A DNA stretch of 64,000 nt, from NCBI RefSeq assembly GCF_002286975.1, contig NZ_NSKB01000001.1:560733-624732 (forward strand), written 5' to 3'. This DNA is from Halomonas salipaludis. GTDB taxonomy: Bacteria; Pseudomonadota; Gammaproteobacteria; Pseudomonadales; Halomonadaceae. The notes beneath the pieces are model-generated. The model ran no database searches. It was not told the DNA's origin and saw only the letters and a list, made by a program, of their open reading frames with translations. Positions 37,377 to 62,117 of the stretch are shown here, in pieces. The stretch's first letter is position 1, and every line of letters begins with the position of its first letter. The position numbers were made by a program, and so were the translations under genes.

Positions 37377-38342
37377 TCATAGCCCCTGGGCGCCACGCCG
37401 CAGCCAGTCGTGTACGAAGACCAACTTGCGGCGCGCCACTTCGGAGAGCACGAAGGGATAAAGGTCCGACAGCCCCATCGCACGATTGATATGGTTGACC
37501 GCCATCACCTGATGCGTCGCGACATGGATCAAGCGCTCGGCATCTGCCTCCATGTAAGGGTCCCAGCCGTGATACGGCAGGTCGCTGGAGGAGAGTCCCG
37601 CGGCGACGAAGCTATCGGCGATATCCGTAAGGTGCAGCAGATGGGCCGCGGTTTCGGCCCAGTCCTCGTGGGGGTGCGCGGAGGCATAGGTGCTGACGAA
37701 GCTCGAGCGCCAGCCGGCGGGCGGGCCTTGTTGGTAGTGCCGCTGCAGGGCTGCGGCGTAATCTTCACGCTCGTCGCCAAACATCGCCCGGAAGGCCTCG
37801 AGAAAGTCATCTCGCAGGCTGAGCCGCCACCACAGCATGTGCGAAATTTCATGGCGCATATGACCGATCATGGTCCGATAGGGCTCTTCGAGCGCCTCTC
37901 GACGCGTCGCGCGCAGCACCGGGTCCGCTTCCGCCACGCTGATGGTCACCACGCCACCCGCATGCCCCATGGCCACCGGCGTCGGCCCTTCGGCCAGCAT
38001 GTAGAACACCGGGGGTGCGCCGGGGTCTTCCGGGCGGAACCAGTTCCAGCGCCCCAGATTGTCCAGCACCCAGCGCTTGGCGGCCTCGGTCTTGGCCCAG
38101 TGGGGCATGGCATCGGGAATCGCGGGATCCGGCGCCAGTGCGGTCATCGCGCAGGCGCGACAGAACGCCCCCTGCTCGGGGGCGATCCAGTTGCAGCCGA
38201 TCACGTCGCGATTGGCGCAAAACGGCGGCATGGTGATCATCGCCCTGGCCTGCGGGTCATAGGCGACAGGCGTACCCGTGGCAGTAGCGAGGTTGTCGAA
38301 CCACAGGGACCCGGGACCGACCGGGTTGGCAAAGACGCGCAT
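37377..38342 (-). CDS. Putative zinc-binding metallopeptidase
   Basis: This protein of 321 residues belongs to the bacterial putative zinc-binding peptidase family. The N-terminus has a zinc-ribbon-like set of cysteines (Cys42, Cys50, Cys61, Cys64). A gluzincin-type HEISH at residues 164-168 lies in a long helix (GHMRHEISHMLWW), and HEDWAETAAHLLH downstream offers the third ligand. No signal peptide is visible, so it is probably cytosolic. AGGAGG precedes the ATG at 38342. The substrate is unknown. The stretch 38343-38533 upstream shows no other gene. Confidence 0.8.
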   Translation of the reverse strand: MRVFANPVGPGSLWFDNLATATGTPVAYDPQARAMITMPPFCANRDVIGCNWIAPEQGAFCRACAMTALAPDPAIPDAMPHWAKTEAAKRWVLDNLGRWNWFRPEDPGAPPVFYMLAEGPTPVAMGHAGGVVTISVAEADPVLRATRREALEEPYRTMIGHMRHEISHMLWWRLSLRDDFLEAFRAMFGDEREDYAAALQRHYQQGPPAGWRSSFVSTYASAHPHEDWAETAAHLLHLTDIADSFVAAGLSSSDLPYHGWDPYMEADAERLIHVATHQVMAVNHINRAMGLSDLYPFVLSEVARRKLVFVHDWLRRGAQGL

Positions 38343-38533
38343 AAGGCAGCCCCTCCTGGACAAACGCCAGAGCGCGGCACTCTGGTAAAGATAGCGGCTG
38401 AATGCAGCACTCCACCCTACAGCCTACCATTGAAGCGTCAGGCGCCCAGCCACCTATCGTTGCGCGAAGGAAAAAACCAAGACGCTCGGCGACGACATCA
38501 CCAGCGCGGGGAGTCTCGATCTGCATGTGCCGG

Positions 38534-39229
38534 CTAGGTCAAGCGTGCGCGCAGCCGTGTCACTGCCTGGCTATGCAACTGGCAGACCCGCGATTCGCTG
38601 ACGCCCAGCACCGCGCCGATCTCCTTGAGGTTGAGCTCTTCCTGGTAGTAGAGCCCCAGCAGCAATTTCTCGCGCTCGGGCAGCAGCTCGATGGCGTCCA
38701 CCAGCCGCTGGCGCTGCTCACCGTCGACCAACGCGGCGAACGGCGACGGCGGTGCGCCCTCGCCATTGCCCGGTTCGACGCCCTCCGCCACCAGCTCCTC
38801 GTAGGGCAACAGCTGGCCACCGTTGGTGTCGCCCAACTGCTGATGGTATTCGGCAAGCTCGATGCCCAGCTCGTCGGCGATCTCCTGCTCGTCGGCAGCC
38901 CGCCCCAAGCGCTGCTCGGTTCGCCGCACCGCTTCGTCCAGCGCCCGCGCGTTGCGCCGCACACTGCGCGGCACCCAGTCGCGACTGCGCAGCTCATCGA
39001 TCATCGCCCCGCGAATGCGCTGGCTGGCGTAGGTCGCAAAGCTCGCTCCCTGCCCCGCATCGAAGCGGTTTAGGCAGTCGAGCAGGCCGACCATGCCGGC
39101 CTGTATCAAGTCGTCGAGTTCGACGCTCGCCGGCAGCTTGACCTGCAGCGCCAGCGCCTGACGGCGCACCAGCGGCAGATACTGCTCGAGCAGTGCGCCT
39201 TGATCGATCTTGCCCTTTGCCGTGTACAT
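38534..39229 (-). CDS. fliA: Flagellar sigma factor sigma-28
   Basis: FliA directs RNA polymerase to late flagellar and chemotaxis genes. The 231-residue protein has sigma region 2 (LVRRQALALQVKLPASVELDDLIQAGMVGLLD over residues 20-51, with FATYASQRIRGAMIDELR), region 3 (DWVPRSVRR) and region 4 (LPEREKLLLGLYYQEELNLKEIG, with the SESRVCQLHSQA recognition helix). Length is typical (about 239). Three promoters matching its consensus are read in this window. It is the last gene of the leftward flagellar island; a hairpin at 39270-39285 lies between flhE and fliA. Confidence 0.95.
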   Translation of the reverse strand: MYTAKGKIDQGALLEQYLPLVRRQALALQVKLPASVELDDLIQAGMVGLLDCLNRFDAGQGASFATYASQRIRGAMIDELRSRDWVPRSVRRNARALDEAVRRTEQRLGRAADEQEIADELGIELAEYHQQLGDTNGGQLLPYEELVAEGVEPGNGEGAPPSPFAALVDGEQRQRLVDAIELLPEREKLLLGLYYQEELNLKEIGAVLGVSESRVCQLHSQAVTRLRARLT

Positions 39230-39340: not shown

Positions 39341-39778
39341 TCATTGGCCAACGGTTTTTTGCGCCTTTGCAGCGGCCGGCCGGCGATGATCGACGATCAC
39401 CTGCAGCCCGTTTACCTGCACCGGCTTTGCGCCCTGGCCAAGGCGGAAACGGAAGTGCAGCGGCTGCACCGCGGACAGCCCTGCCAGCCCCTGGCTCTGC
39501 CCCCTGACACCATTCAGGCGCAGGCAGCGCTGAGGATGACACAACCACGCCTCGAGCAGCGCCCCAGGCGGGGTGGCATACTGCCAGCTGATACGCGCAA
39601 TCTGCGCATCGGGTGGTGCAGCACCACTCAGCGCGCGGCTGTCGGTGTCACGCCCGGGCACCGCCACTCGCACGCCCTCCGCCTGGGCGACCCAGCTGCC
39701 CGACACCGCGGGCGTCCCGGCCTGCCCCCAGGAAGCGCCGGCCAGCAGTACCATCAGTGCCCCCAGCCACGCCTTCAT
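39341..39778 (-). CDS. flhE: Flagellar protein FlhE
   Basis: FlhE is a periplasmic protein that in enteric bacteria prevents proton leak through the flagellar export apparatus. The precursor has 145 residues with a signal peptide ending near GASWGQA (residue 20). The mature part has the FlhE core SGSWVAQAEGVRV, a Cys80/Cys85 pair in WLCHPQRCLRL that can form the family disulfide, and FRFRLGQG near the end. The start overlaps the stop of the FlhG-like gene (ATGA). In E. coli flhE follows flhA directly; here flhF and the FlhG-like gene lie between. Confidence 0.85.
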   Translation of the reverse strand: MKAWLGALMVLLAGASWGQAGTPAVSGSWVAQAEGVRVAVPGRDTDSRALSGAAPPDAQIARISWQYATPPGALLEAWLCHPQRCLRLNGVRGQSQGLAGLSAVQPLHFRFRLGQGAKPVQVNGLQVIVDHRRPAAAKAQKTVGQ

Positions 39779-40302
39779 GACCGCTGCCCCGCTTGACGCA
39801 CCATCAGCAGGCGAATCCCCAGAAAGTCGGCGGCGGCCTGGCGCAGGTTGTTGAGCAGCCCGCGCGACACGCCCAGCCTCGGGTGCAGCAGCAGCAGTCC
39901 ATGGGGCCCGCCACGTTCGGCGAGTCTTCGCAGCAGGCAGTAGCTGCGCCGGAAGGCGTCTGGATCGCTGTCGACCCACAGCGCCCAGCGGGTCTGCTGG
40001 GCGGCCAGCGTGGCCAGGTGTGGGCTGTTCTCATCGAGCGCTACCACCCGCCACCCCTGGGGATCACCCACCCAGGCCTGTCCCTGGTGTCGCCAGGCAT
40101 CGAGCAGGCGATAGACCCGGGCGGTATCGCCGTCGGGCAGCCCTACCACCAGCAGCGCCCGGTCGCCCGAGCAGGACACCGCTGCATCGCGGCGCGGCGT
40201 AACGACCGATGGCGTATCGACATCCGCCGCCGTTGTCTGGTCAAGCTCACCGGCCCACTGGCGCAGCCCCGCGGCCTGGTCCTTGAACGTCATGCTCGAC
40301 AT
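39775..40302 (-). CDS. FlhG/FleN-like protein lacking the ATP-binding loop
   Basis: This protein of 175 residues sits exactly where fleN/flhG is found in polar flagellates, directly after flhF. Near its start, FKDQAAGLRQWAG carries the DQAxxLR motif by which FlhG activates the FlhF GTPase. No Walker A loop (KGGxGKT) exists. Residues 110-170, with DAFRRSYCLLRRLAERGG and LRQAAADFLGIRLL, resemble the C-terminal half of the MinD-like FleN. So it looks like a shortened FlhG that kept the FlhF-contact helix but lost ATPase function. It starts 1 bp after the flhF stop and overlaps flhE, so all three are coupled. Assignment rests on position and two motifs. Confidence 0.6.
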   Translation of the reverse strand: MSSMTFKDQAAGLRQWAGELDQTTAADVDTPSVVTPRRDAAVSCSGDRALLVVGLPDGDTARVYRLLDAWRHQGQAWVGDPQGWRVVALDENSPHLATLAAQQTRWALWVDSDPDAFRRSYCLLRRLAERGGPHGLLLLHPRLGVSRGLLNNLRQAAADFLGIRLLMVRQAGQRS

Positions 40303-40303
40303 C

Positions 40304-42619
40304 TCAGGCGGCCACCTCCCGGAACACGTCGCGCGCGGTGAACAGATGAATCAGTGCATCGAGCAGCGTCGCTGCCTGGCGGCTGCGCTGGCTACCGAGC
40401 AGCGCCAGCAGCTGAGCGCGTACGTCCATGGCCCAGTCGCCGTCAGCGGCGGCCAGGCTGAGCGCCACATTGGCCAGCCCATGGGCGAGCTGCAGCCGCA
40501 GCTCGGCGTCGCAGGCGCCCAAACCGGCATCGGCCAAGCCCTGCCAGGCGCGACGCGTCAGCGCCGGCATCTCCGCCAGCAGCAGCTGCTGGGCGATCAG
40601 CGCCTGGTCATCCGGCGCCTCGGGCGCCAGCCAATAGCGCCGCGCCAGGCGCTTGCCGCTGTCGCGATCAACGGGTATAGCGGTGAACAGCGACAGCGGA
40701 ATCGCCGCCTCGCCGCCGCGCCGCGCCGCATACTCGACCGTCATGCGCTGCAGCGGAAGCGTCACAAGACGCCCCTGGTGGCGACACGCCAGCTCGCTGT
40801 CCGGGGCCGCCAGCGCGGCCAATTCGGATACCGCCACCCGCCGCCCGTCGGCCAGCACGCGCTGATTGGGCTTGGCCGCGGCCAGCCACGGCAGTTGCCA
40901 GGCGCTCAGCCAGGCCAGCGCATCCGGTGCCGGTAGCGTGGCCAGCACGTGGGCCTGGGGGCCGAGTTGCTGGGCACTCCACTCGAGTCGCTCGACGTCG
41001 CCCGCCGGCAGGCGCTGAGTCTGCCAACCGCTGGCCAGCAGCTGGCCTTCGCTAGTTACCGCCCCGCACGGCAGGCGCCAGTCGCAGCCGTTGACCCTTT
41101 GGGTGCCCCACAATAGGGTCAGGGCACTGCTGTCACAGGCCTCGCGGGCCGCAGCTAGCTGTGCAGCGTGCAGGCCGTCAAGGGCGGCACGCTGATGCCC
41201 CAACGGCTGGCTGGCAAGCTGCCAGGCACCCTCGACCAGCGCGAAGCCGGGCTGCTGGGCGCGTAGCGCGTCGAGCGCCGCGCGCAGGGCACGCCCCTGG
41301 CCGAGCAGGCCTCGCGACAGCGCCGTAAGACGCTTCTGACCGCTTGCCACCGGCTCGCGCAGCGCGCTGAACTCAGGCGTGAACGGCGAATCGTTCTCGA
41401 CCCATAGCGCCTCGGCGACCAGCGCCCCGGCATCGGCCAGGCTCAGATCTTCCGGCACCTGCTGGCCGTGGGACACATAGTGCAGGCACAGCCCGTGGCG
41501 AATCACGCTATCCAGCAGCGGGCCCAGGCGCGCGGATTCGTCACGCTTGGTCAGGATGCAGTCGTCGAGTCGGTTGCCAGCCGCCCGCGCCGCCTGGCGA
41601 TAGCTGACGATGACATCCTCGAGGGTATCGCCATGGCTGGCGGCATTGAGCAGTAGCAGCAGTCGAACCTGGCGCCCGCTGGCGGAGAGCTGCTCGATCT
41701 GCTTCACCAGGCGCTGATCGCGCTGGCTCATGCCCACGGTATCGATGATGATCAGCCGCTTGTCGCTGAGCCGCGCCAGCGTATCGTCCAGGGGGGCATC
41801 GGCCTCCTGGGCATGCACCTCGACACCCAGCAGACGCGCGTAGATGCGCAGCTGCTCGTGGGCACCGATGCGGTAGCTGTCGGTGGTCACCAGCGCCACC
41901 CCGTCGCCACCATGGCGCATCACGTAGCGCGCCGCCAGCTTGGCGGTGGTAGTGGTCTTGCCGACCCCGGTCGGCCCGACCAGGGCAATCACCCCGCCCT
42001 GGTCCAGCAGCACCGCCTCGTCGCCAGGCGTACTAAGCCGTGCGCCGAGCTGACGGCCCAGCCAGGCGTCTTCGGCGGCAACGTCGCAGACAGCATCCAG
42101 CTCGGCGGGCAGCTCGGCGAGCAGTTCCGCCGCCAGGCGCGGACCGACCCCCGCCGACCACAAGCGCTGATGCAGCCGCGCCAGCGGGTCACGATCGCTG
42201 CGCTGGTCGCGCTGCTGGCGCCCCAGCATGTCGCGCATCTCCTGCATTTCACCGAGCAACCGCTCGCTGAGCGCGGCAAAATCGGGCTGTGCGGCGGCCG
42301 GTGCCGCGGCAGCGGTTGGCGGCTCAGGGCGATATTGAGGCTCGGGCGCCGAACGTGCCGCGGCCTGGCTGGCATAGGCCCGCGCCTGGCGCGAAGCGTC
42401 GGCGGGCGAACGCAGTCCCGGCGCAGCTTCCGTTGCGGGCGGCGAGGCTGCCCCAGCGGGCGCGGTCATGCGCCCATGGGCATCGTCGGCCAGGGCGAGG
42501 ACTTCCACGCCGCCCTCGACGTTGCGATTGGAAAGAATCAGGGCGTCATCGCCCAGGGCAGCACGCACCTGGCGCATTGCCTCGCGGCTATTGACGCCGA
42601 GGAAACGTTGAACACTCAT
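40304..42619 (-). CDS. flhF: FlhF-type SRP-like GTPase with long C-terminal extension
   Basis: FlhF is a signal-recognition-particle-type GTPase that sets flagellar site and number in polar flagellates. This protein has 771 residues against the usual 400-500. Residues 1-45 have the FlhF start (QRFLGVNSREAMRQVRAALGDDA). A Pro/Ala-rich linker follows. The NG domain spans about residues 115-405, with P-loop GPTGVGKT (215-222), the SYRIGAHEQL segment, DTVGMSQRD (293-301) and TKRDE (357-361). The last 360 residues form an extra region that I do not recognise, rich in Leu, Ala and Trp and ending near LIHLFTARDVFREVAA. GAGGGG precedes the ATG. It follows flhA by 49 bp. Confidence 0.88.
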   Translation of the reverse strand: MSVQRFLGVNSREAMRQVRAALGDDALILSNRNVEGGVEVLALADDAHGRMTAPAGAASPPATEAAPGLRSPADASRQARAYASQAAARSAPEPQYRPEPPTAAAAPAAAQPDFAALSERLLGEMQEMRDMLGRQQRDQRSDRDPLARLHQRLWSAGVGPRLAAELLAELPAELDAVCDVAAEDAWLGRQLGARLSTPGDEAVLLDQGGVIALVGPTGVGKTTTTAKLAARYVMRHGGDGVALVTTDSYRIGAHEQLRIYARLLGVEVHAQEADAPLDDTLARLSDKRLIIIDTVGMSQRDQRLVKQIEQLSASGRQVRLLLLLNAASHGDTLEDVIVSYRQAARAAGNRLDDCILTKRDESARLGPLLDSVIRHGLCLHYVSHGQQVPEDLSLADAGALVAEALWVENDSPFTPEFSALREPVASGQKRLTALSRGLLGQGRALRAALDALRAQQPGFALVEGAWQLASQPLGHQRAALDGLHAAQLAAAREACDSSALTLLWGTQRVNGCDWRLPCGAVTSEGQLLASGWQTQRLPAGDVERLEWSAQQLGPQAHVLATLPAPDALAWLSAWQLPWLAAAKPNQRVLADGRRVAVSELAALAAPDSELACRHQGRLVTLPLQRMTVEYAARRGGEAAIPLSLFTAIPVDRDSGKRLARRYWLAPEAPDDQALIAQQLLLAEMPALTRRAWQGLADAGLGACDAELRLQLAHGLANVALSLAAADGDWAMDVRAQLLALLGSQRSRQAATLLDALIHLFTARDVFREVAA

Positions 42620-42668: not shown

Positions 42669-44753
42669 TCATCCGCGCGCCCCCACCGTACTGGTCACGC
42701 GCAGAGGGCGGTCGTCGGGTATTTCGGCCTGGGACAGCACCACCAGCTGACGCAGGCGGCGTCGCAGGAAGCGTGACAGCACCGCGCGCAGGCTGTGCTG
42801 GACCACCAGCACCGGCGGCTCGCCGGCCATCTCCTGGTGGTTCAGGGCCTGCTCGGCCTCGCTCATCAGGGTATCGGCGAGACCAGGCTCGAGCGCCCCG
42901 CCGTTGTTCATGGCCTGCATCAGTACCTGTTCGAGGTTGGCATCCAGGCCAATGACGTGGAGCTCCTCGGTGCCGGGGAACCACTGCTGGGTGATCGAGC
43001 GGCCCAGTGCCACGCGCACCACCTCGGTGAGGCTGGCTGCGTCGCTCTGCGGGCTGGCATGCTCGGCCAGGGTATCGAGAATGGTGCGCATGTCACGGAT
43101 CGACACCTCCTCGTCGAGCAGATTCTGCAGCAGCCGCTGCAGCGTGGTGAGGGTGATTGCCTTGGGCACCACATCCTCGACCAGCGCCTTGCTGTCGTCG
43201 CCCAGCTTGTCGAGCAGCTGCTGCACCTCGTTGCGGCCCAGCATCTCACTGGCATGGCGATACAGCAGGTGGTTGAGGTGGGTGGCCACCACAGTGCCGG
43301 CATCGACCACGGTGTAACCGTAGACCTGGGCGTGCTCGCGCTGGGCGGTATCGATCCATACCGCCGGCAGGCCGAAGGCCGGGTCGGTGGTCTCCGTGCC
43401 CTCGACATGCCCGGAGACCTGCCCCGGATCGATGGCCAGCCACTTGCCCGGGAAGGCCTCGCCGCGCCCGACTTCGACGCCCTTGAGCGAGATCACATAG
43501 GTGTTGGGTCCCAGCTCCAGGTTGTCACGAATATGCACCACCGCCGGCAGGAAGCCGACGTCCTGGGCGAATTTCTTGCGCACGCTCTTGATCCGCCCCA
43601 GCAACTCGCCCTGCTGACGATGATCGACCAGTGGAATCAGCCGATGACCGACCTCCAGGCCCAGCGTATCGACCAGCTGCACGTCGTCCCAGCTGGCCTC
43701 CGGGGCCTCGGGTGGCGGCGGCGCTTCGGCCTTGATCTCTTGCTCGGCGATGGCACTCTCCTGGCGACGCATCAGCCACCAGGCCAGGCCGCCGAGCAGC
43801 GCGGTGAAGAACAGGAACACGAAGTTGGGCATGCCCGGGACCAAGCCCAGCATGCCCATCACGCAGGCCGACAGGATCAGCACCTGGGGATTGACGAACA
43901 GCTGGCTGATCATCTGCTGGCCGACATCTTCATCGGTCGTGACCCGCGATACCGTCACCCCTGCCGCGGTGGAGATCACCAGTGCCGGGATCTGCGCCAC
44001 CAGGCCATCGCCGATGGTCATCAGGGTGTAGGTGCGCGCCGCATCGCCGAAGCCCATGCCGTGCTGCAGCATGCCGATCAGCAGCCCACCAATGATGTTG
44101 ACCACCATGATCACCAGGCCGGCCATGGCATCACCGCGCACGAACTTGCTGGCGCCGTCCATGGAGCCGTAGAAATCAGCCTCCTGGGCCACCTCGGCGC
44201 GCCGCTTGCGGGCGTCATCCTCACCGATCAGGCCGGCGTTGAGGTCGGCATCGATGGCCATCTGCTTGCCGGGCATAGCGTCGAGCATGAAGCGCGCGCC
44301 GACCTCGGCAATGCGCCCGGCGCCCTTGGTGATGACCATGAAATTGATGATCACGAGGATCAGGAAGACCACCAGGCCGACCGCAAAATTGCCGCCGACC
44401 AGAAACTGGCCGAACGCCTCGATCACCTTGCCCGCGGAGTCGCCCCCGCTGTGGCCCTCCATCAGGATCACCCGGGTCGAGGCCACGTTCAGCGACAGCC
44501 GCAGCAGCGTGGTAAACAGTAGAATCGCCGGGAAGGCGGCAAAATCGAGGGGTTTCTGGGTGAACATGCTGACCAGCAGCACCATCACCGCCAGGGCGAT
44601 ATTGAAGGTGAAGAACATATCCAGCGCAAACGGCGGCAGCGGCAGGATCATCATCGACAGGATCATGAGGATGAGGATCGGGCCGGCCAGCAGCTTCATA
44701 CGCACGCTGCCCATCCAGTCGTGGCGGCTCATCAGGTCAGTCAGCGCTCTCAT
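42669..44753 (-). CDS. flhA: Flagellar export gate protein FlhA
   Basis: FlhA is the major membrane component of the flagellar type III export gate and the docking site for chaperone-substrate complexes. The 694-residue protein has eight membrane helices in its first 330 residues, with FHIPEP-family signatures such as RLSLNVASTRVILMEGH and FMLDAMPGKQMAIDADL, then the cytosolic domain with VWIDTAQREHAQVYGYTVVD. The start overlaps the flhB stop (ATGA). Confidence 0.96.
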   Translation of the reverse strand: MRALTDLMSRHDWMGSVRMKLLAGPILILMILSMMILPLPPFALDMFFTFNIALAVMVLLVSMFTQKPLDFAAFPAILLFTTLLRLSLNVASTRVILMEGHSGGDSAGKVIEAFGQFLVGGNFAVGLVVFLILVIINFMVITKGAGRIAEVGARFMLDAMPGKQMAIDADLNAGLIGEDDARKRRAEVAQEADFYGSMDGASKFVRGDAMAGLVIMVVNIIGGLLIGMLQHGMGFGDAARTYTLMTIGDGLVAQIPALVISTAAGVTVSRVTTDEDVGQQMISQLFVNPQVLILSACVMGMLGLVPGMPNFVFLFFTALLGGLAWWLMRRQESAIAEQEIKAEAPPPPEAPEASWDDVQLVDTLGLEVGHRLIPLVDHRQQGELLGRIKSVRKKFAQDVGFLPAVVHIRDNLELGPNTYVISLKGVEVGRGEAFPGKWLAIDPGQVSGHVEGTETTDPAFGLPAVWIDTAQREHAQVYGYTVVDAGTVVATHLNHLLYRHASEMLGRNEVQQLLDKLGDDSKALVEDVVPKAITLTTLQRLLQNLLDEEVSIRDMRTILDTLAEHASPQSDAASLTEVVRVALGRSITQQWFPGTEELHVIGLDANLEQVLMQAMNNGGALEPGLADTLMSEAEQALNHQEMAGEPPVLVVQHSLRAVLSRFLRRRLRQLVVLSQAEIPDDRPLRVTSTVGARG

Positions 44754-45931
44754 CGAGGCTCCTCGTTTGCATCATTCTCTCCTGACGCCGCGCCTGGCGA
44801 CTTGACGTCGAGTTCGGCCGGTACCGGCAGGTCACTAGGCGTATCGGGCATCTCTTCAGCTCCGGCGTGGGCTCGCTTGAGGCGGAACGCCCAGGCCAGG
44901 ACCTCGGCCACCGCGGTATACAGTGCGAACGGTATCTCGCGGTCGAGGTCGACGTGGTGGTAGAGCGCTCGCGCCAGTGGCGGTGCCTCGAGCAGCGGCA
45001 CGCCGTGCTCCTCGCCCAGCTCACGAATCCTCGTGGCCACCGCGTCGGCGCCCTTGGCGACCACCCGCGGCGCCGACATCAGGCCATCGTCGTAACTCAG
45101 CGCCACTGCATAATGGGTCGGGTTGGTAACGATCACATCCGCCTCGGGCACCTTGCTCATCATGCGGTTACGCGCCATCGACTGCTGCTGCGAGCGGATC
45201 CGCGCCTTGAGATGCGGGTCACCCTCGGACTCCTTGTGCTCGCGCTTGACCTCATCCTTGCTCATGCGCAGCTTCTTGGCATGGCTCCATAGCTGATAGG
45301 GCACGTCGATCAGGATCACCACCAACAGTGCCAGCACGATCAGCCCACAGGCCAGCGCCGCCAGCTGCATCGCACTGGCCAGCGCCTGCTGAATGGGCTG
45401 GTCCATCAGGCTCAGGTAGCGGCCGCGATTGGTATACAGGAAGGTCAAGGCCACGCCCCCCACCAGCGCCGACTTGGCGATCGCCTTGAGCAGTTCGATC
45501 ACCGCCTGGACGCCGAACATGCGCTTGAGGCCCTTGAGCGGGTTGAGCTTGGACAGTTTGGGCTGCAGCGACTTGGCGGAGATCAGCCAGCCGCCGAGCA
45601 GCGCCGGAGCCACCAGCGCCACAACCATCAGCAGCAGGAACAGTGGCAGCATGGTCAACAGGGTGTGCTGGCCGATATTGAAGATATGCGTCAGCATCGG
45701 CATCACCTCGAAGGCGTGCCGGCGCTCGAACAGGAACGCCTGCTCCATGGCCAGGCCCAGCTGGTCGTAGAGCATCGCGCCCATGGTGTACAGGCCGATG
45801 ACCCCACCCAGCAACAGCATGAAGGTGGTCAACTCCCGGGAACGCGCGACCTCGCCATCCTCGCGCGACTTCTGCAGGCGGCGTGGCGTGGCTTCTTCGG
45901 TCTTTTCCTGATCGCTGCTCTGGTCGGCCAT
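44750..45931 (-). CDS. flhB: Flagellar export switch protein FlhB
   Basis: FlhB switches export from rod-hook to filament substrates by self-cleavage. The 393-residue protein has the N-terminal EKTEEATPRRLQKSREDGEV, four membrane helices and the autocleavage motif NPTH at residues 270-273 (E. coli N269-P270). The C-terminal cytosolic part ends in an acidic/Pro tail. The 150-bp gap upstream (45932-46081) has no recognised promoter. A second copy of the post-cleavage domain alone is encoded at 62816-63103. Confidence 0.96.
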   Translation of the reverse strand: MADQSSDQEKTEEATPRRLQKSREDGEVARSRELTTFMLLLGGVIGLYTMGAMLYDQLGLAMEQAFLFERRHAFEVMPMLTHIFNIGQHTLLTMLPLFLLLMVVALVAPALLGGWLISAKSLQPKLSKLNPLKGLKRMFGVQAVIELLKAIAKSALVGGVALTFLYTNRGRYLSLMDQPIQQALASAMQLAALACGLIVLALLVVILIDVPYQLWSHAKKLRMSKDEVKREHKESEGDPHLKARIRSQQQSMARNRMMSKVPEADVIVTNPTHYAVALSYDDGLMSAPRVVAKGADAVATRIRELGEEHGVPLLEAPPLARALYHHVDLDREIPFALYTAVAEVLAWAFRLKRAHAGAEEMPDTPSDLPVPAELDVKSPGAASGENDANEEPR

Positions 45932-61544: not shown

Positions 61545-62117
61545 CTAACGCGCGGCGGCGACGGCCTGCTCGGTTGACGCCGCGGCCCTGGCCTCGGCCA
61601 GGCGTTTGCGAGTCTTGCCGGCACGCGACGGCGGCTGACAGATGCCGCACACGAAATCCTGGCTGGGAGTGTGCGCATGGGCCACGAAGTGACCACCGCA
61701 GCTGGTGCAGGGATTGAGTTCGAGCATGTCGCTTTCGAAGAATCGAATCAGCGTCCAGGCGCGCGTCAGGCCAAGCACCGGCTCGGCCTCGTCGAGGTCG
61801 ACCTGCTCGAGATACAGCCGAAACGCCTTGACGAAGGCCTCCATCCGCTGGCAGCCATGATCCTGCTTGAGGCGAAGGTAAATGTTGTAGAACAGCGAGG
61901 AGTGGACGTTGGGCATCCAGGTGATGAACCAGTCGGTCGAGAACGGCAGCATGCCCTTGGGCGGTGACATGCCGCGCACCTCCTTGTAGAGGCGAATCAA
62001 GCGAGCACGGCTCAGGTCCGTCTCGGTCTCCAGTACCTGCAGACGCGCCCCCAGCTCGATCAGCTCGATGGCCATCTGCACCTGCAGCATTTCGCTGACG
62101 AGGCTCTTGTCCGCCAT
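61545..62117 (-). CDS. flhC: Flagellar master regulator subunit FlhC
   Basis: FlhC joins FlhD as the FlhD4C2 activator of class 2 flagellar genes. The 190-residue protein matches FlhC throughout, including LIELGARLQVLETETDLSRARL in its first third. The four zinc-binding cysteines are in CTSCGG and CGICQPP near residues 140-165. GGAGG lies 7 bp before the ATG at 62117, 2 bp from the flhD stop. Confidence 0.95.
   Translation of the reverse strand: MADKSLVSEMLQVQMAIELIELGARLQVLETETDLSRARLIRLYKEVRGMSPPKGMLPFSTDWFITWMPNVHSSLFYNIYLRLKQDHGCQRMEAFVKAFRLYLEQVDLDEAEPVLGLTRAWTLIRFFESDMLELNPCTSCGGHFVAHAHTPSQDFVCGICQPPSRAGKTRKRLAEARAAASTEQAVAAAR

Follow-up and report, generated by a model that had tools for sequence, protein, structure and literature searches.

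An FlhG-like protein without a P-loop encoded directly behind flhF in Halomonas salipaludis and its relatives

The stretch of Halomonas salipaludis DNA analyzed here, called the window, is 64,000 nucleotides long (contig NZ_NSKB01000001.1, positions 560,733 to 624,732) and carries a flagellar gene cluster. The genes that concern us, and the parts of the protein under study, designated X, are as follows.

37377-38363, minus strand: putative zinc metallopeptidase (Peptidase_Mx, 2.1e-82), adjoining the flagellar cluster
38534..39229, minus strand: fliA (PRK06986, 1.3e-93)
39341..39778, minus strand: flhE (Pfam FlhE, 3.5e-18)
39775..40302, minus strand: X, an FlhG-like 175-aa protein without a P-loop (open reading frame and translation, family search, dN/dS)
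39796..40167, minus strand: predicted five-stranded alpha/beta core of X, residues 46-169, its C-terminal half similar to FlhG (pLDDT, fold matches, core profile)
40168..40245, minus strand: variable linker of X, residues 20-45 (pairwise identity, pLDDT)
40261..40281, minus strand: DQAAGLR, the FlhF-activating motif of FlhG, residues 8-14 of X (translation)
40304..42619, minus strand: flhF, 771 aa, long type (SRP54, 1.1e-32; PRK14723, 1.2e-131; TIGR03499 over its cut-off)
42669..44753, minus strand: flhA (FHIPEP, 1.2e-273)
44750..45931, minus strand: flhB (Bac_export_2, 5e-131)
61602..62117 (match range), minus strand: flhC, a master regulator gene (PF05280, E = 3.2e-84, contig positions 622334-622849)

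X starts one base after the flhF stop, its end overlaps flhE by 4 bases, and fliA follows. Upstream of flhF are flhA and flhB, then cheZ, cheY, a receptor gene, cheB, cheR, further receptor genes, cheW, and cheA, with flhC at ~61602-62117. Apart from flhF and X, we take this cluster to resemble the E. coli flhDC-mot-che-flhBAE region; with flhF and X set between flhA and flhE, it looks like a halfway stage. Behind its GTPase domain, the long FlhF continues in a large extension (the C-terminal ~350 residues, window positions 40304-41400), which has no Pfam domain among the matches listed and is shared with the PRK14723 family.

A preliminary description of this DNA had marked the open reading frame of X without giving its strand. 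The frame is confirmed, running from 40302 to 39775 on the minus strand and encoding 175 residues, as are two features claimed for its product. First, the DQAAGLR motif stands near the N-terminus, at residues 8-14, and is kept throughout the strong family matches described below. Second, X lacks a P-loop, as the deviant Walker A pattern KGGxGK[ST] occurs in 0/187 X sequences, taken from three overlapping sets, versus 31/34 FlhG proteins; seven of these 187 have a stray GK[ST] outside any Walker A pattern. No Pfam, NCBIfam, or PHROG family is matched by the X of the window, its single NCBIfam row (HpxZ, E = 0.16) being regarded as chance. When 48 members were scanned against family models, whatever families came up were each matched by a single member, and MinD, ParA, and Mrp models are absent among the families listed at E ≤ 0.1, the nearest in kind being one AAA_25 match (0.053) in one member. 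Plasmid records gave no match to X.

Conservation is uneven along the protein. Pairwise identity is 0.15 over residues 19-44 and 0.50 over residues 47-169, and relatives differ greatly in the length of the linker that joins helix and core. Compared with its nearest relative (L117, from Halomonas socia), X has a dN/dS of 0.15, which indicates purifying selection; the median over 1017 pairs with dS between 0.1 and 1.5 is 0.41. X is more than a free activating helix, as a folded, conserved domain of ~125 residues is kept, and the protein ends 8 residues past the last predicted strand.

Judged by sequence, X is a conserved gene family. We searched 151 Halomonadaceae genomes with the whole protein, the motif playing no part, and obtained matches at E ≤ 0.01 in 74, of which 69 are strong (E ≤ 4e-21). 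Four of the five weaker ones (G092, G100, G115, and G133) proved on reading to be diverged family members, and the fifth (G022), a frame of 5689 residues, is regarded as spurious. All 69 strong proteins have DQA[ASQT]GLR followed by xW, the forms being DQAAGLR in 60, DQASGLR in 5, DQAQGLR in 2, and DQATGLR in 1, plus DQAAGLR in L039. Because the search that gave this conservation (69/69) was blind to the motif, a chance occurrence was rejected. In the genera labeled g2, g4, and g15, a DQA[AS]GLR protein of ~130-160 residues is encoded at the long flhF in 11/11 genomes, a count confined to those genomes read that have an FlhF over the family cut-off; even the 131-aa versions retain DQAAGLR.

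An FlhF over the family cut-off is found in 69/69 genomes with a strong X and in 123/151 Halomonadaceae genomes overall, and genus g20 divides into 12 genomes with both and 12 with neither. Genomes that have FlhF and no strong X number 54; among them are those of the genera with diverged X, of genus g8, with no X at the two loci read, and of genera with a short FlhF. In one genome (G136, locus L049), the X frame is cut short and the flhF match is truncated too, and both genes seem to decay together.

Wider samples place X mainly, and not only, in this family. A sample of 244 genomes of the order added one further family with 2 genomes, and a sample of 369 genomes of the class gave, besides family members, six weak matches (E from 0.02 to 0.09). 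Scanning one genome per species in 84,980 species for DQAAGLRxW yielded 193 places, of which 111 encode relatives of X; 80 of these form the set of named loci used below, in which motif conservation was not counted because they had been found with that very pattern. The named loci are mostly from Halomonadaceae, the others coming from Azotobacter vinelandii, Stutzerimonas stutzeri, Pseudomonas linyingensis, Aliidiomarina, Idiomarina, and Pseudidiomarina.

X lies directly behind flhF in the window and at 79/80 named loci, the remaining locus being cut by its contig. The order flhA-flhF-X-flhE-fliA is found at 71 of the 80 and flhA-flhF-X-fliA at 7, all of them Idiomarinaceae, with flhA-flhF-X and X-flhE-fliA at one each. 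At two loci of genus g8 (L046 and L047), flhE (Pfam FlhE, 3.9e-23 and 2.2e-22) comes immediately after a long flhF, with no X between them, so the FlhF of g8 does without X. In the short-FlhF genera g3, g5, g22, and g24 (four loci: L041, L042, L043, and L044), flhF is followed by a gene for a fliA-type sigma factor.

According to a recent review, flhF and flhG are consistently encoded together (PMC12826062). The genomes with X are an exception, as X stands where flhG would be. A profile built from five FlhG proteins (A2), for which matches of about 1e-15 to 1e-19 are taken as the MinD level, matches 166/274 genomes of the class at E ≤ 1e-15, with values down to 2.9e-111. At E ≤ 1e-25, it finds FlhG in 0/151 Halomonadaceae genomes, including that of the window, with up to 16 candidates scored per genome. 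The preliminary description had left it to be checked whether a full-length flhG exists elsewhere in the genome; none was found, the best profile match (3.3e-15) being MinD. Eight matches to the FlhG profile were obtained in this genome, of which seven were named, L116 (E = 1.5e-4) being left aside. MinD, ApbC, a ParA-type protein, a ParA partition ATPase, a ParA-like protein, and a GET3/ArsA-type ATPase were rejected as FlhG by NCBIfam, and L110 was rejected as it reads by eye like a Wzc-type tyrosine kinase. From its locus behind flhF, the presence of FlhC, and the failure to find FlhG in the genome, X belongs to FlhDC-type flagellar systems and occupies the place of FlhG. The genomes with short, polar-type FlhF (g3, g5, g22, and g24) also have no FlhG at 1e-25, and their FlhF is apparently without any FlhG. 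In A. vinelandii, which is described as peritrichous and driven by FlhDC, the available part of a report states that fleN is not linked to flagellar genes (PMC2885672).

The C-terminal part of X had been likened to the end of FleN, and this resemblance appears real but is weak. With hhalign, 24 X sequences (profile A1) against five FlhG gave an alignment of 85 columns in the C-terminal half with E = 3.6e-5 (probability 71%), 48 X sequences (A3) against 34 FlhG gave E = 0.0011 (20%), and 48 X sequences against three Burkholderiaceae FlhG gave 6e-4 (29%). Among controls, the best of 60 column shuffles reached 0.0076 and a reversed alignment 0.25. A core-only profile of X, from residue 46, was then run on a set of 34 FlhG, three other P-loop ATPases, 1384 decoy open reading frames, and reversed and shuffled FlhG. 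The first 19 rows, from 13.3 bits downwards, are all FlhG, followed by a decoy at 6.8 bits, and FlhG ranks above the MinD, ApbC, and ParA-type protein of the window genome. With a shorter profile, from residue 96, the same decoy, which is the C-terminal extension of an FlhF (L187, residues 634-685), appears already at row 12 with 8.0 bits. The best FlhG against the core is that of Cupriavidus metallidurans, and that of Burkholderia glumae is only 14th. A PDB sequence search with profile A1 reaches FleN at E = 0.37-0.43, a position that six designed proteins and one periplasmic binding protein outrank, and with profiles A3 and A4 FleN is absent from the matches at E ≤ 10. The C-terminal half of X appears to have a weak but specific similarity to FlhG, and X shares with Burkholderiaceae FlhG an N-L stretch ahead of the last strand.

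Predicted structures agree with such a relationship in part. The AlphaFold2 model of X, built with 48 sequences, has a mean pLDDT of 82.7, with values above 90 over most of residues 46-169, where five strands alternate with four helices; the motif helix (residues 12-19) and the linker are of low confidence, the linker block having a pLDDT of 53-66. Foldseek against the PDB places apo-FleN first (E = 3.8e-4), and six of the top ten rows are FleN or FlhG; TM-scores are low, about 0.39, and flavodoxins stand high in the list. VIA-align likewise places FlhG first (4rz3; Z 7.6, 3.6 Å, 120 residues), with a CheY-like domain (6.9) and others tied. When the Pseudidiomarina protein was modeled as well (pLDDT 84.3), FlhG came at rank 6 in Foldseek, after pinoresinol reductases and a designed protein, and at rank 2 in VIA-align (Z 7.9, 3.6 Å, 123 residues) versus 8.2 for EF-Tu. 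The structural alignments of X start at the P-loop strand of FlhG (residue 21 of 4rz3 and residue 8 of 5j1j), unlike a global hhalign, which pairs the first strand of X with a later FlhG strand. In the comparison with the FlhG fold that the preliminary description had called for, FleN and FlhG are among the best matches of both models, but Z stays below 8 and is tied with CheY-like and G-domain folds. The predicted fold is compatible with FlhG; it is neither diagnostic nor proof of descent.

These fold matches bear on an alternative in which X is a chimera of the FlhG activating helix and a flavodoxin- or receiver-like alpha/beta domain of unrelated origin, so that X would still activate FlhF while its core serves another partner. 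The very variable linker would suit such a fusion, as would the similar Z values of CheY-like TadZ, response regulators, and G domains, the position of flavodoxins in the Foldseek list, and the failure of profiles A3 and A4 to find FleN in the PDB. However, the core stripped of motif and linker still ranks FlhG in its first 19 rows, above the decoys and the other ATPases, the N-L stretch is common to X and Burkholderiaceae FlhG, and the X gene sits where flhG sits in B. glumae. We consider a chimera unlikely.

The FlhF proteins paired with X keep their GTPase motifs. Among 73 collected from the 80 named loci, the P-loop is present in 73/73 and DTxGMSQRD in 71/73, as in four betaproteobacterial FlhF. 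Three FlhF from genus g8, which are not paired with an X, have DTVGVGQRD. A tree of 27 FlhF, in which Azotobacter, Stutzerimonas, and P. linyingensis are left out, sets six polar-type proteins apart from the X-paired, betaproteobacterial, and g8 rows with support of 100/99; the split between X-paired and betaproteobacterial rows is not firm (84/78). The g8 FlhF lies on a very long branch, with 2.44 changes per column, as if freed from constraint.

X might instead bind FlhF through its helix and brake or stabilize the FlhF dimer without activating the GTPase, the Trp after the motif changing the outcome. This Trp stands two residues past the motif in 69/69 X proteins, while most of the 29 FlhG listed have Met, Leu, or Ile, but the catalytic Gln and the other fixed residues of DQAxxLR are likewise kept in 69/69, which makes a braking role rather improbable. 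Least credible of all, and very improbable, is that X is a decaying flhG relic on its way to loss with no present role: the short, diverged X of g2, g4, and g15, its absence from two g8 loci, its shortening together with flhF in G136, and the enteric bacteria that have neither flhF nor flhG (PMC12826062) could be so read, but dN/dS is 0.11-0.31 in 15 of the 25 closest pairs listed (0.37-0.70 in the other 10), X co-occurs strictly with FlhF, and the motif is kept in 69/69 and in the 131-aa versions too.

We therefore favor a reading in which X is a reduced FlhG. Like FlhG/FleN/YlxH/MotR, the MinD-type ATPase that partners FlhF, X has DQAxxLR near its N-terminus, a gene behind flhF, a weakly similar C-terminal half, and a compatible predicted fold. 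Its place is that of flhG in B. glumae, whose FlhG runs ~70 residues past the aligned end, a segment that X is without; the C-terminal end of FlhG holds a membrane-targeting sequence (PMC12826062). The FlhG of Burkholderiaceae (B. glumae and Cupriavidus) resembles X in lacking KGGxGK[ST] in the three examined and in partnering an FlhF from the non-polar side of the FlhF tree, but it is of full length (~270 aa) and still has vestiges of the P-loop region as well as the C-terminal part. By analogy, the SRP RNA, activator of Ffh/FtsY, is also a non-ATPase stimulator of an SRP-type GTPase pair (PMC12826062); it is an RNA and not a protein, and has no homology to X.

In FlhG, activation of FlhF is coupled to an ATP-driven cycle tied to flagellar number and gene control, and the Gln of DQAxxLR is reported to be co-catalytic in the FlhF dimer, where it acts at the active site (PMC12826062). 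The available part of a Bacillus subtilis study indicates that this Gln is needed, Q8A resembling loss of flhG, and that its authors infer FlhF stimulation to be the central function of FlhG (PMC12327844). While bound to FlhF, FliG is unable to accept FliM/FliN, and FlhG lifts this block (PMC12826062; PMC11236974, the latter as far as its available text goes). In the same available part of the B. subtilis study, FliY binds FlhG without nucleotide via Lys177, an arginine (printed as both 277 and R207), and Phe215 (PMC12327844). In an alignment with FlhG made by eye, covering the X of the window and the 80 named loci, the equivalent of Lys177 is Lys or Arg in 67/81, that of Arg207 is Asn in 79/81, and that of Phe215 is Phe, Tyr, or Trp in 72/81.

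On this basis, the DQAxGLR helix of X, on its flexible tether, would insert its Gln into the FlhF homodimer as in FlhG and stimulate GTP hydrolysis, after which FlhF would release FliG and FliM/FliN could join. By sequence, the ATP-binding loop and the C-terminal membrane-targeting end are gone, with ~100 residues missing in all; X should thus not dimerize with ATP or cycle to the membrane, and FlhF would be switched off constitutively and not under ATP and membrane control. As residues of the Lys177 and Phe215 type and the motif are kept, X could retain both FlhF activation and contact with the C-ring. From its sequence, X is most likely a miniaturized FlhG of FlhDC-type systems, a constitutive activator of the FlhF GTPase without ATP switch or membrane anchor. 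That X is an FlhG of which only the parts facing FlhF and the C-ring are left seems probable. The fuller proposal, that X is a natural separation-of-function FlhG that activates FlhF, docks on the C-ring via a kept FliM/FliN-binding face, and has neither ATP switch nor membrane cycle, is tenable, at somewhat less than even chances.

For the best explanation we count the locus behind flhF, the motif, the co-occurrence with FlhF, the lack of FlhG at E ≤ 1e-25, the sequence link to FlhG, the fold rank of FleN, the intact GTPase motifs of FlhF, and the Gln requirement in B. subtilis; against it, the weakness of that sequence link, the higher score of EF-Tu (8.2) than of FlhG (7.9), and the g8 loci without X. 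The free-standing FlhF activator envisaged in the preliminary description is supported in part, by the motif, the place behind flhF, the missing P-loop, the failure to find a full-length FlhG elsewhere in the genome, FlhC, and the FleN/FlhG fold matches, and is qualified in that the fold is not diagnostic and X is not just a helix.

Should X be FlhG reduced to the FlhF part of its two jobs, these would be separable in nature, and a widespread protein keeping only FlhF stimulation would make the claim about the central function of FlhG testable in living cells without mutants. If the separation-of-function proposal is true, FlhDC-driven systems would run FlhF with a constitutive activator, and X would mark an evolutionary step between the FlhF/FlhG switch of betaproteobacteria and the enteric bacteria, in which both proteins are missing. 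X may indeed be such an intermediate. The review does not settle whether flhF and flhG were lost from enteric bacteria or never reached them (PMC12826062). Our literature search found no report of an ATPase-less FlhG-like protein such as X, and the available part of a paper on Halomonas bluephagenesis reports flhF and FlhCD and makes no mention of the X gene (PMC10185862).

In a search for further betaproteobacterial FlhG, the class sample gave matches in 24/369 genomes, with at most 38% identity to B. glumae FlhG. New records from a plasmid search for FlhG were a Paraburkholderia MinD-like protein, with no flhF annotated nearby, and an Aquicella P-loop protein. The FlhG of B. glumae and of two Cupriavidus (L066:4761-5570, L065:6002-6817, and L068:6041-6850) lack the Walker A lysine, reading GVGCTS, GAGATT, and GVGTTT, respectively, and may thus already be pseudo-ATPases.
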